The notes beneath the pieces are model-generated. The model had not been told where the DNA came from. It saw only the letters and a program-made list of their open reading frames with translations, and made no database searches. 64,000 nt of DNA. Source: Deltaproteobacteria bacterium (lineage in GTDB: Bacteria > Desulfobacterota > Binatia > UBA1149 > JAJCZL01). Numbering within the stretch: position 1 is the first letter of the stretch; every line of letters starts with the position of its first letter. The stretch covers positions 1 to 64,000 of the forward strand of contig JAJCZL010000013.1 of the NCBI GenBank assembly GCA_029262415.1, read 5' to 3'. Positions 16,177 through 47,574 of this stretch are shown piece after piece. A program made the translations under genes and the position numbers.

Positions 16177-17157
16177 TTAGCGGCCGCCGACCTGAGCGCC
16201 GCCGGATGCGGGGTTGGGCACGACCGCTATACGATCGGCCACCAGGTTGAGCGTAAGGCTGAACGAGCCGGTGACAAGGACACGGGCGCCGACTCCCGGG
16301 CGACCCGGCACACCGCCGTTGTCGATCTCCGTGGCACTGGTAGTGCGCACGACGACCTGGTCGTTCAGCACGAAGCCGCTGTCCGCGGCCTCAGTGATGA
16401 AGCCGTCGATGCGTAACCTGAGGCCGGGAACCAGATTGAGGTCGCTGCCGCGACTCTCCACGGTGTCGGCGACGACGTCTCCGACACCGTCGAGGCCGCG
16501 GGTGGTCACCCGCGCGATCTGGCCGTTGGACAGTCCGCCGGGCGGTACTTCACCGATAGACGCAGCTCCGAATTTAATCGTGTGTCTGCGGATTCTGAAT
16601 ACCTGCGCCTGCCGGTCGAGATCTTGGATTCGACCGTGGATGGTTGCGCTCGCACCGTCGGTAACGGCGGCGACGCGCGTCACGACAACCGCGCCGTCGC
16701 CGTCGGCAAGGCCGCTGACCTCGATAACCGTGCCCGGGTTGAGAGTGTCTAAAGAGGTTCCCTGAAACACGGTAGAGGTGGAGACCGAAAGCTCTTGTCC
16801 GAAAACCGTCACCACGCCGGCAGTTGAATCAACGCTATCGACGGCGCCGCGCAATAGGCTGTCGAAGCGAATCTCTTCGGCGATCCCGGTACCGGCGACC
16901 TCGTCGAATGTGCCCGATACCGTCACCACCATCCCGGGGCGGAGATCGGCCACGGAGCCGGAGGATCCGTTGACGACAATGTCGGCGGAATCGATGTCGA
17001 AGCGTAGGTCGTTGACGACGATGCTTCCGAAGTCGGTGATAACACCTTGAGCGATCCCGGTGCCGCCGATCCCGCCTCCGGTCGAGCTTCCGCAGCCCTG
17101 CGCGGCGGCGAAAGACAGCACCAGGGCCAGAACTATATGGGGTATAGGAGATCGCAC
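16177..17157 (-). CDS. DUF5666-domain lipoprotein
   Basis: A 326-residue lipoprotein. The start is GTG at 17157 (VRSPIPHIVLALVLSF), giving a signal peptide that ends at a cysteine in AAAQGCGSS. The mature protein is a string of small beta-barrel-like modules of the DUF5666 type: GVITDFGSIVVNDLRFD, then repeated GAVDSVDS, GRIQDLD and GFITEAADSGFVLNDQ segments, each followed by VxVTG-like strands. Function is unknown; the modules look like OB-fold binding units. It begins one base after the stop of the DUF6502 gene, so the two are almost certainly translated from one message. Confidence 0.82.
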   Translation of the reverse strand: MRSPIPHIVLALVLSFAAAQGCGSSTGGGIGGTGIAQGVITDFGSIVVNDLRFDIDSADIVVNGSSGSVADLRPGMVVTVSGTFDEVAGTGIAEEIRFDSLLRGAVDSVDSTAGVVTVFGQELSVSTSTVFQGTSLDTLNPGTVIEVSGLADGDGAVVVTRVAAVTDGASATIHGRIQDLDRQAQVFRIRRHTIKFGAASIGEVPPGGLSNGQIARVTTRGLDGVGDVVADTVESRGSDLNLVPGLRLRIDGFITEAADSGFVLNDQVVVRTTSATEIDNGGVPGRPGVGARVLVTGSFSLTLNLVADRIAVVPNPASGGAQVGGR

Positions 17158-17158
17158 G

Positions 17159-17992
17159 TTAGTTGTCTTCGGAATAGTCTTCCTCGTAATAGTAGATCCC
17201 CAACGAGACGCGTTTTCGACCCGTGCCGGCGGCGTCGGTGTTGGTGTCCCTGTCGCGCCTGGCCATGAGTTCGTCGAGCCGCTCGAGCGCGCGTTGCGCG
17301 AGTCTGGCGGCCTTGGCGCGGATCTCTTCGGTGGATTCGCTGGGGAGGTTGTCGTAGCTGACCTTACGCTGGAAGAATGCCTCCTCGGGGGCAGCTTCGA
17401 GGTTGTGGTCGATGCATTTGATGAGGTCGGCAACGTCGACACCGAGGATGCCGAGTTTGTCGATCTCGCCCTGGGTGGGGACGTAGGCGCGGGCGGTAAG
17501 CTTGATCCTGGAGTCTTTGAGCCGCGTGACGGCGCCCACACGTTCGAGCTCATCGAGGATCGCTCGCGGCGGAACATCTCCGCTGTATGTTTTGACCAGG
17601 TCGGCGAAAGAGGCGGACCCTTTTTCAAAGGGTAGTGCGGCCGGCCGACCACGATCGCTGAAGCGCCCGTCGCGTACCCAACCACTGATGACACGCGCCG
17701 CGCGGTTGTAGCGATCGACCGCGCCCGCGTCGTTGGGTTCGATCAGTTCCTGTACGCGCTTGACCTCTTTGCGCGATATCCCGGTGATAATCGAGACGCG
17801 CGACCCGGTCTGCTTGCGGCCTTTGATGGTAAAGTCATCGGAGGCCACATCGACGTACACCCGCTTGGCAATGTCTGCGAACGCACCGTAAGGAACACCG
17901 TAGCGCAAGAGGATGCGCACCAGCGGGCGCAGCAGGCGGCGGACGGCTGCGCCGAGGGCACCCGCCACGGCTGTTTCGGCACGTGGGCTCAT
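17159..17992 (-). CDS. DUF6502-family protein (probable DNA-binding or regulatory)
   Basis: A 277-residue cytoplasmic protein. The N-terminal 100 residues (LLRPLVRILLRYGVPYGAFADIAKRVYVDVA, split here by family memory into helical and wHTH-like parts; ISRKEVKRVQ) match the DUF6502 family, which is predicted to contain winged-helix-like DNA-binding segments. The C-terminal third is charged and helical and ends in an acidic YYYEEDYSEDN tail. The direct coupling to a DUF5666 lipoprotein gene is a pairing seen in other genomes as far as I recall. A regulator plus envelope sensor is possible but not shown. Confidence 0.75.
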   Translation of the reverse strand: MSPRAETAVAGALGAAVRRLLRPLVRILLRYGVPYGAFADIAKRVYVDVASDDFTIKGRKQTGSRVSIITGISRKEVKRVQELIEPNDAGAVDRYNRAARVISGWVRDGRFSDRGRPAALPFEKGSASFADLVKTYSGDVPPRAILDELERVGAVTRLKDSRIKLTARAYVPTQGEIDKLGILGVDVADLIKCIDHNLEAAPEEAFFQRKVSYDNLPSESTEEIRAKAARLAQRALERLDELMARRDRDTNTDAAGTGRKRVSLGIYYYEEDYSEDN

Positions 17993-18071
17993 TTTCCCAG
18001 TTAGTCTACATCCAAAACTGAGCTTGGATAAGGGGTTGAATCAGAACGGTAGAAAAAGCTCAGATTGGCTC

Positions 18072-18101
18072 TTGCGATGCCCATTGTCCTGGGAATATAA
18101 T
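18072..18101 (+). promoter_or_regulatory. Sigma-70-type promoter of the candidate RNA
   Basis: TTGCGA at 18072-18077 and a perfect TATAAT at 18096-18101, separated by 18 bases. This is among the best sigma-70 matches I noticed in the window. It points along the plus strand into a gene-free stretch, although both flanking genes are on the minus strand. Confidence 0.6.
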
Positions 18102-18107
18102 CCCAAA

Positions 18108-18427
18108 CAGCACCAGGGGCAACCACCTTTTCCGTCCCGAGCCATGACAGCTTCGCCGCTGGGCCCGGGACGGAAAAGTCTTTCTTCCGGGTGGTCTGGG
18201 TCAGGAAGGAGTACTGGACAAACACATGAAGTTCCGAAACCAGCCACATCCAAGCAGGGTCGCCCCCCCCACCTTCGCTTGCGAAGGTGGACCCAGGAGC
18301 CTCGTCGTAGCTAGCGCGCGGCGAGACTCCGACCCCAAAAGGAAGCGGGCGTCGTCGCTCCCCCTGCGGCGCCCGCTCTCCTGATGGTAGTTGGGAGACC
18401 GCCGGATTCCTCCCCGGCGGTCTTTTG
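18108..18427 (+). ncRNA. Candidate structured non-coding RNA
   Basis: The stretch between the DUF6502 and ferredoxin genes has no plus-strand gene but folds into a chain of strong hairpins. Paired segments are: 18127-18139 with 18166-18178 (13 pairs); 18269-18278 with 18281-18290, closed outside by GGGT/ACCC; 18296-18307 with 18319-18330 (one mismatch, one G-U pair); 18345-18354 with 18367-18376 (10 pairs, one G-U); and 18377-18381 with 18394-18398. A terminator hairpin follows. With the promoter at 18072-18101 this gives a transcript of about 320 bases. I looked for RNase P, tmRNA, SRP and 6S signatures and did not find a convincing match, so its class is unknown. Confidence 0.5.
18396..18427 (+). 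terminator. Intrinsic terminator
   Basis: AGACCGCCGG (18396-18405) pairs perfectly with CCGGCGGTCT (18414-18423), with an 8-base loop, and is followed by TTTTGC. The T run is on the plus strand only, so it ends a plus-strand transcript, not the minus-strand ferredoxin gene next to it. Confidence 0.7.
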
Positions 18428-18439
18428 CTATTTTGCGTG

Positions 18440-18811
18440 CTATTTTGCGTCGGTCTCGACGCGCAGATCGGCGACCGGCGTGCCCCCAATCAGGTGTTCC
18501 TGGATGATTCGTTCAAGGGCCTCGGGCGTGCACGAGTGGTACCAAACCGCATCTGGATACACCACCGCAATCGGTCCCGACCGGCAGATACGCAGGCAGT
18601 TGGCTTTCGAGCGATAGATCCCCCCGCGACCATCCAGCCCGAGTTCGCTCAAGCGCTGTTTGAGGAACTCCCACGATCGTATGCCTTCGGCTGCCGGGCA
18701 GCACTTTGCGGCGGACTGATCGGCACACAGAAAAATGTGGCGTTCAATGGCAGGGATGCCGAGAGTATCGGCGATCTTGGCGAGCTGTTGGGCTTCGGAC
18801 TCTTTTTTCAT
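18440..18811 (-). CDS. Thioredoxin-fold [2Fe-2S] ferredoxin
   Basis: A 123-residue protein of the thioredoxin-like [2Fe-2S] ferredoxin family (Shethna type). The cluster ligands are expected among HIFLCAD, the CC pair of [10 protein letters not shown], and [10 protein letters not shown]; the last motif is diagnostic. The remaining core ([27 protein letters not shown]) is the usual strand-helix end of the fold. These proteins transfer single electrons, but their partners vary and none is evident here. It starts 10 bases after the stop of the legumain-like lipoprotein gene, so it is the distal gene of that operon. Confidence 0.88.
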
Positions 18812-18821
18812 CGTGGCAGTA

Positions 18822-20756
18822 TCAGATCGGTGCGGCGCCGATCTTGACCGTCACCGTGATGGGCACGCCTGCGCGAAGTACGTTCAAGCGGCGCTCTTGC
18901 CCGCGCATCGAGGTCATTACCCACTCGCGTATCTGGGTACGTTCGCGGAACGGTGTGCCCGGCGGGCCGACGATGATGTCCCCGCGCTGCAGTCCCGCGG
19001 TCGCGGCGGGAGAGTCGGCGACCACCCGGCTGATCTCGACTGCACCTTCTTCCAATTCGAGTTCAAGCCGTTGGCTGTGACGAACCGCGGCGAACTCGAT
19101 TCCGAGCCAGCCGGGCCGAATCGTTTCGAGCAACGCCAGTTCATCGACCAGCGGTGGAAACGCGTCGCGGCGCTGGGGCCGCGGGCCGGGGAGTTCATCG
19201 GGCGGTGCCAGCGCGACCTGTTCACAATCGGCAACCGATTCGAACCCGCGGCGACCGGCGTCGGTTCCGAAACGGTCGAGGTGCGCAAGGCCGGATATCC
19301 GTACCAACTGTAGTTCCATTCGCCTTACCGCCGCGCGCCTTACCTCCATGCGGTAGGCTGCCGCTGCCGATTCCTCGCTCGCCTGTGTTAAAGCTTCGAG
19401 GCGCAGGGCGGTTGTTTCGTCGGCTCTCGTGAACAACTCCAAATCGGTGAGTAGCCAGACCGCTAGCTCGCGTTTTTCGTCGTCCTCGAGTTCGTCGAGA
19501 AACCCGTCGCTCAGGTACTCACGCCAAAACTCGTGTACGTCGAGAAAGCGTTCGAGATTCTCGCGTTTAAGATCAACGAGCGCGGCTTTCCAACGATGCG
19601 CGTGGCTGCGCAGCTCGCGACCGAGCCGGGGGAGTTCGCGGGTACTTGCATAAAGAGCGCTCAGAGTACGGGGCGTCGAGGTTGAGAACTTCTCGCCGAT
19701 TGCATCGATTTGTCTGAACAGCGAGCGGTAGTGAATCTCGTCACGCCACGCGTAGCGGAGCATCTCATCGACGTACGTTCGAAATGATTTGCCCTGGAGT
19801 TCCGCGTAGTGCTCGAGCTCGCGCTTGAGAACCAAGTCGCTGGTGCGGTTGGGTACGTCAGGGGTTCGGTCGGTGACCTGGATGGCGTCGTGGGCCTCGT
19901 GCAACGTACCGTGCTTGCGCAACGCCTCGAAGAACCTGAAGGAGTGACCGACGTTGTCTTTGCCGAAATTCTCAGGGTAGCAGCCGTACGCTGGTCTTGA
20001 CGCGTCGGAGGCAAAGTACCCGCATGTCCCGATACGAAGTCTGTTGGGGTTTTTCACTGCGAAGATCGCGTTGGCGAACGAACCGGAAAAGCACTGAGAC
20101 ATCAGCGAGACGACCCGTACTTTCTTGTCAAGCTTTCCGATGAACCTGCGGTACTCATCGACAGACCAGTCCTCTCCCCACAAGACGATGCTGTTGTTGG
20201 TCAGGTCGTCTGAGTTCTTGTTGCCGTGATCCGTGACGTAGATGAGGAGCGTGTCATCCGGCGCGATCCGCTTGGCTTTCTCGTCCAGCCACTCTGCCAG
20301 CGCGTGTTTGCTTGCCGGGCGGATACTTAAGCCGGCCAACCGCGAGTCCTCGTAGCGAACCTCGGTACGTAGCCGTTGTCCGATCTGCAAACCGTCGATC
20401 AACCAGAAATTCCTTTCGGGTTGGATATCGCGCACTGCCAAGTCGAGTGCCGGATCGGATCCGTCGCTTGCGAAGACATCGATGCGGCGTTTCGGCACAC
20501 CGGCTGCGTACAGCAGCTCGAGCATCTCGCGGACATGGAGTAGGTGCGACTGGTAGTTCTTTTGGCGGCTCCCGCCGCCATTGATGAGGATTGCCCAGGT
20601 CTTGCCGCGCGCGACCGGGGCCCGCTCTGAAGCGACGGCCGCGGCGTCGACGGAGGTCGCTGTCGCCGTCGGCCGACTCAAGTTTCCCTGGTGACAAGCG
20701 GCGGCTGCAAGCGAGAGCAGGAGCGGCAAGGCCGCCGCAGGCAGTTGAACTCTCAC
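18822..20756 (-). CDS. Legumain/caspase-like (peptidase C13, clan CD) lipoprotein with C-terminal PDZ domain
   Basis: A 644-residue lipoprotein: the signal peptide ends at the lipobox AAAAC (Cys21). Residues about 50-330 form a caspase-fold domain. It opens with [19 protein letters not shown] and has the catalytic His177 in [10 protein letters not shown] and Cys222 in [11 protein letters not shown], the clan CD dyad as arranged in C13 (legumain-type) peptidases. A helical middle part of about 200 residues follows. A PDZ domain fills the last 100 residues ([27 protein letters not shown]). Both dyad residues are present, so activity is possible. It acts in the periplasm or at the outer membrane. 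It lies in a run with an SDR upstream (68-base gap) and a ferredoxin downstream. Confidence 0.82.
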
Positions 20757-44488: not shown

Positions 44489-45997
44489 ATGGCTAAGGCA
44501 TGGTACGAACGACTTACGCAGGCCGATAACTCATTTTTGGTACTGGAGGGCCCGACCACCCACATGCACGTCGCGGGCCTTATGATCTTCGATGACGGGC
44601 CGGTCTCTAAAAACGGGCGGGTCGACATCCAAGCGGTTCGCGACCAGGTTGCCTCGCGTCTCGATCTGATTCCTCGTTACCGCCAGCGTCTGATGTTTAC
44701 TCCGGTCGAAGGACATCCTGTGTGGGTAGACGACGCCAGCTTCAATATCGACTACCACGTTCGCCACACCTGTCTGCCGAGCCCGGCTGGGCCTCGAGAA
44801 CTGCGAGTCCTCGCTGCACGCATCATGTCGCAGCAACTCGACCGCGGTAAACCGCTGTGGGAGAACTGGGTTGTCGAACGGCCGGGCCGGCCCGGCTTCG
44901 CGCTGGTCAGCAAGACCCATCACTGCATGATCGACGGCGCCTCGGGTGTCGACCTCATGGCCGTCTTGATGAGCCTGGAGGCTGACACGCCGTTGGGCAA
45001 ACCGGCGCCGTGGACGCCACGCCCGATCCCGAGTGCCTTGCAGATGGCCGCTGGTTCGGTTGCGCACTGGGCCTGGACACCGATCGATGTCGCGCGCTCG
45101 GTAGTTCGCAATGGCAGCGGGATTCTAGGGAACGGACTAGCGATGGGACGTGCGCTCGGGATGACTGCCGCAAATGCGTCGGCGACTCCCGTCAATCGCC
45201 CGGTGGGACCACACCGACGCTTCAACTACACAACCTTTCGTTTGAGCGACGTCAAACGCGTCAAGGCAGTGCTCGGGGGCACCATCAATGACGTCGTGCT
45301 CGCTACGGTCTCTATGGCTGTGCGCGCCTACTTGAAGCGCCATCGCGTCCGCCTCAACGGCCTCGACTTTCGCGTCATGACTCCGGTAAGCGTTCGTTCA
45401 GAGGCTGAACGCGGCAAACTCGGCAATCGTGTTTCGGCTTGGCAGATCCAGTTGCCGGTCGCCGAGGCGAACCCGGTTCGTGCTTTGGAATTGATCGCTG
45501 CAACGACACGCGGTCTGAAGGAGAAGCACGAAGCTCTCGGCGCGCAAATGTTGACGCAGGTGACCGAGTGGACGGGCTCGACGCTTCTGAATATCGCCGC
45601 CCGACTGGCCAAACGTACGCTCCCTTTTAACACTGTCGTCACCAATGTTCCGGGCCCTCAGGTGCCGTTGTATCTGTGCGGGTCCAAGCTTTTGCAGACC
45701 TATCCGATGGTGCCGTTGTTCGTGAAGCAAGGATTCGGCGTCGCCTTGTTCAGCTACAACGGAAATCTTCACTGGGGCGTCAATGCCGACTGGGACGTGA
45801 TGCCCGACCTCGATGACTTCGTCGCGGTCTTGGCGGAGTCGTTCAAGGAACTTTGCGAGATTGCGGGGTTCGAAGCCGAGGTGCCGGATTCCGATAGCGG
45901 CGACGCAGGGCAGATGAGCGCTGGTGCCTCGCCGCCGCGGACGCCCGGCGCGGTGGCTGCGGCGGGGCATATAGCGACCGATCCGTCGGCGACGTAG
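44489..45997 (+). CDS. Wax ester synthase/diacylglycerol acyltransferase (WS/DGAT)
   Basis: A 502-residue acyltransferase that esterifies fatty alcohols or diacylglycerol with acyl-CoA, giving storage lipids. The catalytic motif KTHHCMIDGASG (HHxxxDG) is near residue 150. Other family marks are the PLWENWVVE segment, TINDVVLA, and TNVPGPQVPLYLCG near residue 390. The last 35 residues are Gly/Pro/Ser-rich and probably disordered. I chose the ATG at 44489 (GAGG upstream) over a GTG 27 bases earlier. The stop codon TAG is the target site of the mobile element that begins at the next base. Confidence 0.94.
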   Translation: MAKAWYERLTQADNSFLVLEGPTTHMHVAGLMIFDDGPVSKNGRVDIQAVRDQVASRLDLIPRYRQRLMFTPVEGHPVWVDDASFNIDYHVRHTCLPSPAGPRELRVLAARIMSQQLDRGKPLWENWVVERPGRPGFALVSKTHHCMIDGASGVDLMAVLMSLEADTPLGKPAPWTPRPIPSALQMAAGSVAHWAWTPIDVARSVVRNGSGILGNGLAMGRALGMTAANASATPVNRPVGPHRRFNYTTFRLSDVKRVKAVLGGTINDVVLATVSMAVRAYLKRHRVRLNGLDFRVMTPVSVRSEAERGKLGNRVSAWQIQLPVAEANPVRALELIAATTRGLKEKHEALGAQMLTQVTEWTGSTLLNIAARLAKRTLPFNTVVTNVPGPQVPLYLCGSKLLQTYPMVPLFVKQGFGVALFSYNGNLHWGVNADWDVMPDLDDFVAVLAESFKELCEIAGFEAEVPDSDSGDAGQMSAGASPPRTPGAVAAAGHIATDPSAT

Positions 45998-46129
45998 GGA
46001 AGCTCTGCACAAGTCTTTCAAAACCGCGCTACATTCCGCGGCTACATTCCGCGCGGAATGTGGTAACTCGGCGCAAAGTACACCGGCGGCACGATGATCG
46101 GTCGGCTCAGTCACTTGTGCAGAGCTTCC
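45998..46129. mobile_element. IS5-like miniature element, copy B (complete, 132 bp)
   Basis: The element is bounded by perfect inverted repeats: GGAAGCTCTGCACAAGT at the left and ACTTGTGCAGAGCTTCC at the right. No reading frame of transposase size fits inside. The interior has ACATTCCGCG twice in tandem and then the ACATTCCGCGCGGAATGT palindrome shared by all copies. Flanks are GTAG and CTAG, close to the 4-base YTAR duplications of IS5 elements. It looks like a MITE mobilised by an IS5-type transposase encoded elsewhere. Confidence 0.85.
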
Positions 46130-46146
46130 CTAGCCGGCCGCCGCGG

Positions 46147-47574
46147 TCAGTCGTGGTCTCGGAGAACGTTTTCAAATTGGTCGCGGACGGCCGCGATCCG
46201 TTCGTCCATGTTCTCGCGCGTCCACCCATCGGTCGGGATCGGCGCTAACACCACCGCTTCGATCGTTGCAGGGCGTACTATGTTCGCATGTTTCGGCAGC
46301 GCATCGAGCGCGTTGCGAAACACGATCGGGACCAGCGGTACGCCTGCCTGCATGGCGATGTGAAAGGCGCCTTTCTTGAAGCGTCCCAGACGCGGTGTCG
46401 GACTGCGGGTCCCCTCGGGCGAGATGACGATGGAGAGACCCGAGCGCAGTGCGTCTACTGCCGGCTCGAGTGCAGCAACGGCCTTGGTGTGGTTGAAGCG
46501 GTCGAGAAACACGGTTCCTGCGAACTCGAATACCGGACCGAAGATCGGGTTGTAGCGCGCTTCTTGTTTGGCGATGCCGACGACGTCGCGCCGCAACATC
46601 TTGCAAAGCAGCAACACGTCGATTTCGCTTTGGTGGTTGAAGATGAACACCGCCGGCCGATGCGACCAGAGGTGATGTTCGCCGCTGGTATGTAAATCGA
46701 TGCCGGTGAGTGCAGTGCCGAGTTCACCCCAGGTAGACATCGTCACGTTGACCGCTTGGCGTCGTGACCCGTTGAGAATCCAAGCGGGCAGGCCGGCCGC
46801 CAACGATGTGCCGACGGCACCCATCGCAAGCCCGGTACGTATGACGTCGGAGAGGCCCGGCCTGCCACGGCTGGTGAAACGCCGCACAGGCCAGCCGCGC
46901 GATGATGCGATCGCCGCCAGTCGGCGGTTGGGGTTGAGCGGTCGCGGGTTGCCGACGTTCTCGAGCAGCGGTAGGTCTTCGTCGCTATCGGTGTAGAAGT
47001 AGCTTTGTTCGAGATCGATGCCGATCTCGCGTGCGAGTCTCTCTGCGACCTTCTGTTTTCCCTCACCGTAGCACAAAGGCTTGATAGTTTCACCAGTGAA
47101 GGCCCCGTCTTCGACTTCCAACAGCGTGCAGAGCACGTGTGGGATCTCCATGTCACGGGCGAGCGGCTCGGCCTGATAGCGAGTGGCCGAACTCACGATC
47201 GCGACGGTGTGGCCCATGGCTTTATGGGCGTCTACGAGCGCACGCGATTCGGGGTAGATGTCGGCGGCCAGTTGGTTCTCGAAAGCCTGCTGGCCGAACT
47301 CTTCGAGGGCCTGTTCAGAGACGCCGCGCAGGATGCCGGCGGTCGCGGCAATCAGACCCGAGAACCCGGTTTGACCGGTCGAGAAACTGACCGAGCTCAG
47401 GGTAAGCGCCATGAACTCGCGCGGCGACATCTTTCCCGACAGCAGTCGGTCGCGAAAAATGGTGACCGCGGAGAAACCTGCGAGCAGCGTGCGGTCGAGA
47501 TCGAAGAAAGCGGCCACCCGCGGTCCTTTCGGGCCGTTGCGGATCTCGCGGGTGATTTCAGCGTGTAGTGCCAT
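46147..47574 (-). CDS. HAD-IB phosphatase fused to 1-acylglycerol-3-phosphate acyltransferase
   Basis: A 475-residue bifunctional protein. Residues 20-220 are a SerB-like HAD-IB hydrolase (FFDLDRTLLAG, IVSSATRY, DSDEDLPLLENVG). Residues 275-475 are a PlsC-type acyltransferase with NHQSEIDVL (NHX4D) and SPEGTRSP. Fusions of this kind acylate lysophosphatidic acid; the phosphatase half may make diacylglycerol from phosphatidate or act on phosphoserine-like groups. With WS/DGAT next door, diacylglycerol for triacylglycerol storage is a reasonable guess. The ATG at 47574 is used. Copy B of the mobile element separates the two convergent genes. Confidence 0.93.
   Translation of the reverse strand: MALHAEITREIRNGPKGPRVAAFFDLDRTLLAGFSAVTIFRDRLLSGKMSPREFMALTLSSVSFSTGQTGFSGLIAATAGILRGVSEQALEEFGQQAFENQLAADIYPESRALVDAHKAMGHTVAIVSSATRYQAEPLARDMEIPHVLCTLLEVEDGAFTGETIKPLCYGEGKQKVAERLAREIGIDLEQSYFYTDSDEDLPLLENVGNPRPLNPNRRLAAIASSRGWPVRRFTSRGRPGLSDVIRTGLAMGAVGTSLAAGLPAWILNGSRRQAVNVTMSTWGELGTALTGIDLHTSGEHHLWSHRPAVFIFNHQSEIDVLLLCKMLRRDVVGIAKQEARYNPIFGPVFEFAGTVFLDRFNHTKAVAALEPAVDALRSGLSIVISPEGTRSPTPRLGRFKKGAFHIAMQAGVPLVPIVFRNALDALPKHANIVRPATIEAVVLAPIPTDGWTRENMDERIAAVRDQFENVLRDHD

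Follow-up and report, generated by a model that had tools for sequence, protein, structure and literature searches.

Genes and signals at the locus

The window, that is, the whole stretch of 64,000 nucleotides from a Deltaproteobacteria bacterium that we analyzed (contig JAJCZL010000013.1), contains between two minus-strand genes a gap (17993-18439) that a preliminary description of this DNA had called gene-free. To the left of the gap is the gene for a DUF6502 protein, a candidate DNA-binding regulator (17159-17992; PF20112, 291.6 bits), which is followed on the same strand by a gene for a DUF5666 protein (16177-17139). This pair is conserved, and the DUF5666 protein is probably the co-transcribed partner of DUF6502. 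To the right lies the convergent neighbor, a 2Fe-2S ferredoxin gene (18440-18811, minus strand; NCBIfam matches below cut-off), which is kept in G001, a genome of the same family and another genus; no synteny was seen for the ferredoxin relatives from a contig search. Adjoining the ferredoxin gene, positions 18822-20756 encode a large protein in which a C13 (legumain-like) peptidase domain is combined with PDZ domains. In keeping with the preliminary description, the gap holds no Pfam-supported ORF and no ORF with a homolog, and a search for coding homology on either strand found none for the gap ORFs. The plus-strand ORF at 18384-18617 was rejected as coding, since its strong matches are merely the antisense of the ferredoxin gene.

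The promoter-like sequence that had been reported for this gap is indeed present on the plus strand (18072-18101) and is of the sigma70 type, with a -35 element TTGCGA (18072-18077), a -10 element TATAAT (18096-18101), a spacer of 18, and 10/12 matches. The region holds 2 promoter-like sites of such quality, compared with 0.4 in shuffled sequences. The -10 element is enclosed by the palindrome TGGGAATATAATCCCA (18090-18105, both strands), which is situated ~100 nt upstream of the minus-strand DUF6502 gene and which we regard as a candidate operator of DUF6502. On the minus strand, the same -10 palindrome forms part of a putative opposing promoter, TTGCCC-17-TATATT (18094-18122), directed towards DUF6502.

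Setting the start from the -10 element gives a putative non-coding plus-strand transcript of ~320 nt (321 nt, 18107-18427). It would begin with a leader hairpin (18127-18178) that has a perfect outer stem of 13 bp, followed by an SD-like sequence, AGGAAGGAG (18203-18211), located 14 nt before an ATG at 18226. This SD-like sequence is partly paired with CTTTCTTCC (18180-18188) and may be left over from a unit that was once translated. Further downstream are a perfect 10-bp inverted repeat with a CUUG loop in the fold (18269-18290), a stem-loop of 12 pairs including G-U (18296-18330), and a GC-rich stem-loop that can be read on either strand (18345-18376). The paired arms listed in the preliminary description were all recovered. 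A base-by-base check gave 13/13 pairs for 18127-18139/18166-18178 and 10/10 for 18269-18278/18281-18290, while 18296-18307/18319-18330 form 10/12 pairs, the remaining two being G-U in RNA, and 18345-18354/18367-18376 form 9/10 pairs plus one G-U. The short arms 18377-18381/18394-18398 (5/5 pairs) represent an alternative to the minimum-energy fold, in which TCTCC at 18377-18381 is paired otherwise. The unit ends in an intrinsic terminator at 18396-18427, as had been proposed, for which we located the stem (18396-18405/18414-18423), the loop (AUUCCUCC, with UCCUCC in it), and the T run (TTTT, 18423-18426).

For the plus strand of 18107-18427, the fold energy is -163 kcal/mol, which corresponds to a z of -6.8 against 100 shuffles and of -5.4 against 60; the body (18226-18427) gives a z of -7.2. 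The minus strand folds well too (z -4.7), so the fold alone leaves the strand unsettled. When the window was scanned coarsely in 142 tiles, the median z was -0.3, and two tiles that seemed as extreme with 12 shuffles dropped to -3.7 and -1.7 with 60 shuffles. The next best-folding tile in the window is 45901-46221 (z -3.7, 60 shuffles). In addition, the stem at 18345-18376 is followed on the minus strand by TTCCTTTT (18336-18376 in all), an arrangement that could be a ferredoxin operon terminator. Since this stem may terminate the ferredoxin mRNA, not every stem need be part of the plus-strand RNA.

Search for relatives of the RNA

Rfam was scanned both at gathering and at permissive thresholds. 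Across the whole window, no family scored at or above gathering, and none of the Rfam classes fits the RNA, RNase P, tmRNA, SRP, 6S, and the riboswitches included; the preliminary description had likewise been unable to match it to these. The best sub-threshold match was ar14 (RF02344, NfeR1), an alpha-proteobacterial RNA of the cuckoo group, with 32.1 bits over 18338-18429 against a gathering score of 58.8. The window RNA shares with ar14 the adjacent GC-rich hairpins, the C-rich loops (its own C-rich stretches being CGCUCCCCCUG and the terminator loop), and the terminal hairpin, whereas the CCUCCUCCC hairpin-loop motif that marks the ar14 family (PMC10746234; PMC3927594) is absent from it. 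We rejected ar14, given that its score is far under gathering and that like scores (up to 34.8) occur elsewhere in the order. The ar14 model also gives weak matches in control genomes, e.g., those of E. coli and B. subtilis.

Conservation of the RNA body, by which the preliminary description proposed to judge the RNA, was not borne out. The DNA of 18000-18450 was not found in the 97 other related genomes that we searched, and a covariance model of the 3' part (18290-18427), built from one sequence and run on 12 genomes of the order, retrieved nothing convincing from these relatives. The model scored its own sequence at 172 bits; beyond that, it gave only a weak match in G012 (29 bits, E 0.04) and, in G006, a partial one, and the DUF6502 loci tested yielded nothing. 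A weak 3' similarity between the window RNA and G001 spans ~32 bases (p 0.03 against shuffles). Of the genomes compared, the window's own is the sole member of its genus and one of two members of its family, and no convincing homolog was found in which to look for compensatory base changes. In its own genome the DNA of 18000-18450 is single-copy, and a repeat or mobile element was rejected.

What stands of the candidate structured RNA that had been proposed is a discrete plus-strand promoter-to-terminator unit, apparently non-coding; RNA conservation does not. The window RNA is not an established new RNA class.

A palindrome associated with DUF6502 genes

The promoter, which is the best-supported part of the unit, is conserved in connection with DUF6502 and not with the RNA. 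Upstream of DUF6502 genes we observed TTGGG-N8-CCCAA, which encloses TATAAT or a slightly changed form of it. When the core, TGGG-N7/8-CCCA, was counted from -20 to +350 at 53 class-level DUF6502 loci, it occurred at 25 of them, compared with a mean of 0.67 and a maximum of 5 in shuffles and with 0 to 3 loci for control palindromes; about half of the class-level loci are without the exact palindrome. Of the spacers from 0 to 20, just two were common, namely 7 with 14 sites and 8 with 21. The window locus itself has TGGG-N7/8-CCCA upstream of DUF6502 with the plus-strand -10 inside. More distant, class-level DUF6502 copies (e.g., L009, L112, L115, L130, and L136) have a palindrome spacer of 7, not 8, as if the site and the DUF6502 protein subfamily had changed together.

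A long form, TTGGGAWTATAATCCCAA, was present with at most 2 mismatches in 7 of 13 genomes of the order, all of which carry DUF6502. It was not found in five genomes of the order that lack DUF6502, nor in G012, whose DUF6502 is divergent, and the reversed control pattern gave 0 matches. The window's genome has one copy, at the window locus.

The distance between the plus-strand -35 and -10 is exactly 18 bases at seven order-level loci (L001, L002, L003, L005, L006, L007, and L012) and 17 bases at an eighth (L008); the plus-strand promoters of L010, L011, and L013 show a poor fit to the 18-base spacing. Conservation across genomes backs the predicted plus-strand promoter. On the minus strand, the best spacer from the same palindrome is also 17 at L002, L003, and L008. 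Moreover, a second palindrome of the TGGG-N8-CCCA type, TGGGCTCATTTTCCCA, spans the DUF6502 start codon (17984-17999, both strands) and has the same position in L002, L003, and L005-L007; such a placement would suit autoregulation of DUF6502.

The same promoter in related genomes

The same promoter precedes a gene for a secreted, mostly Cys-rich protein in 5 of 7 related genomes, signal peptides being called by eye from the N-termini. This includes the syntenic locus of the nearest relative, G001, where the order of APS reductase, DUF5666, DUF6502, gap, ferredoxin, and C13 peptidase is preserved. There, TTGGGATTATAATCCCAA is followed in the gap by a plus-strand ORF of 188 aa that is rich in cysteines and appears to start with a signal peptide. 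The 188-aa protein has no Pfam family and no match in the window's genome, and it is weakly matched at the corresponding position in G004, G006, and G008. A second G001 locus encodes another secreted protein, and G011 has a Gly-rich secreted ORF at the equivalent place. Since the same promoter drives a secreted-protein gene in the nearest relative, the slot points to a protein gene, not to a dedicated RNA gene.

The DUF6502-linked secreted-protein units of relatives (e.g., L003, L005-L007, L160, and L162) have the same promoter and palindrome as the window unit, along with a leader and an SD-like site, and they encode a secreted protein, whereas the window unit does not: its leader hairpin, SD-like site, and ATG at 18226 are retained as in the coding relatives, without a secreted ORF after them.

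A second non-coding case was found in G002 (contig C19), namely a unit of ~204 nt with a 12-bp terminator stem, a z of -6.5, and no ORF. Homology of this RNA and the window RNA was rejected, as their sequences are not similar (p 0.3). On another contig of G002 (C47), the palindrome is followed by a terminator within ~60 bases. Both of these G002 DUF6502 loci (L002 and L143 on C19, L144 on C47) lack a divergent ORF, and in each a strong terminator closely follows the palindromic promoter.

Possible origin and role of the transcript

Our preferred reading, which we consider reasonably probable, is that this locus holds the divergent transcription unit of a DUF6502 module and that, in the window species, this unit does not code for protein. 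Most likely, the transcript represents a non-coding version of a unit that makes a secreted protein elsewhere. The observed promoter conservation, palindrome enrichment, lack of coding homology, and coding use of the slot in relatives are the basis for this proposal. The sigma70-type promoter, with its -10 inside the TGGG-N8-CCCA palindrome, would fire rightwards, and the same palindrome would serve the leftward promoter for DUF6502-DUF5666; most likely, DUF6502 would bind the palindrome and control both directions. In most relatives, the rightward promoter serves a gene for a secreted and often Cys-rich protein. In the window species, its product would be a structured RNA of ~320 nt that carries a leader hairpin plus an SD-like site and is terminated at 18396-18427. 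For the window species, we infer both the transcription and the loss or replacement of the ORF. The following three readings are refinements of this module-level explanation, so the likelihoods that we attach to them are not exclusive of it.

Tentatively, and as a minority possibility of some weight, the transcript may be what is left of a gene: a secreted-protein gene would have been lost, leaving its promoter, leader, and SD fused to its 3' terminators in an RNA that has no function. The persistence of the leader hairpin, SD-like site, and ATG at 18127-18228 is consistent with such an origin, as are the coding version at the same place in G001, the absence of the G001 protein from the rest of the window's genome, the weak similarity of the 3' ends, and the lack of conservation of the RNA. 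However, no ORF remnant is recognizable, and several near-perfect stems are unexpected in decaying sequence, though two of them could be terminators.

It is possible, if doubtful, that the transcript is a functional trans-acting small RNA, private to the lineage and controlled by DUF6502, whose stem-loops, having loops that are C-rich or resemble an anti-SD (CUCCCCC and UCCUCC), would pair with mRNAs. Its strongly folding body, its strong, near-perfect stems, the clean promoter and terminator, the UCCUCC in the terminator loop, and the parallel structured non-coding unit in G002 all fit this role. Nevertheless, the body has no homolog that is detectable as DNA (97 genomes) or convincing by covariance model (12 order relatives), the G002 RNA is dissimilar in sequence, and two of the stems may be mere convergent terminators.

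We judge it unlikely that the plus-strand transcript is a by-product of a symmetrical bidirectional promoter meant for DUF6502 and stopped by the terminator. The plus-strand -35 and the 18-base spacing are conserved, and most relatives use the plus direction for a protein, both of which argue against it, even though the palindromic -10 is readable as a promoter on both strands and the C47 locus of G002 has its terminator so close to the palindrome. Warman, Grainger and colleagues describe pseudo-symmetrical bidirectional promoters as ubiquitous in prokaryotes (PMC12825309). The window locus shares with these promoters one palindromic -10 readable both ways and, as predicted from the sequence, divergent units, and it differs in that its symmetry extends to the TGGG/CCCA arms, whose conservation with DUF6502 suggests an operator.

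That the gap encodes a small protein is very improbable: open frames exist (a 52-aa ORF at 18226-18384 on the plus strand, 14 nt behind the SD-like site, and a 162-aa ORF at 18001-18489 on the minus strand), but neither has a homolog in the order genomes, a Pfam match, or a signal-peptide-like start, and their position-specific GC is unlike that of the flanking genes.

DUF6502 as a candidate regulator

The DUF6502 alignment contains an invariant SR and a TGLxRKEVxR motif, and our impression is that the resulting SRVSxxTGLxRKEVxR stretch resembles a helix-turn-helix. No Pfam HTH match and no PDB relative was found for DUF6502, a single-sequence structure model was unusable (mean pLDDT 36), and no paper in the literature searched names DUF6502 (PF20112).

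Taken alone, the RNA adds one further non-coding unit that runs from promoter to terminator and lacks relatives. Its context is more useful: for DUF6502, a family of unknown function, it supplies a set of target genes and a specific DNA site that can be put to the test. DUF6502 as a putative regulator of secreted-protein genes with a TGGG-N7/8-CCCA site is probably a lead worth more than the RNA, and the same promoter with and without protein-coding cargo offers a natural comparison. More speculatively, and with low confidence, DUF6502 could be a DNA-binding regulator that reads TGGG-N7/8-CCCA and controls a regulon of secreted, often Cys-rich proteins; in some lineages, a structured regulatory RNA would have replaced the protein as the divergent cargo.

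Additional long palindromes occur away from DUF6502 (L160:1501, L162:1501, L163:1501, and L165:1501). Those in G002, G004, G006, and G008 lie in the promoters of ORFs with signal-peptide-like starts, and the gene is the same one in G004, G006, and G008; together, these extra sites look like a DUF6502 regulon. The window's genome also has a second DUF6502-DUF5666 pair (L142, G000:C53:17000-23895), which is accompanied by two TGGG-N8-CCCA palindromes and a divergent ORF of 293 aa.
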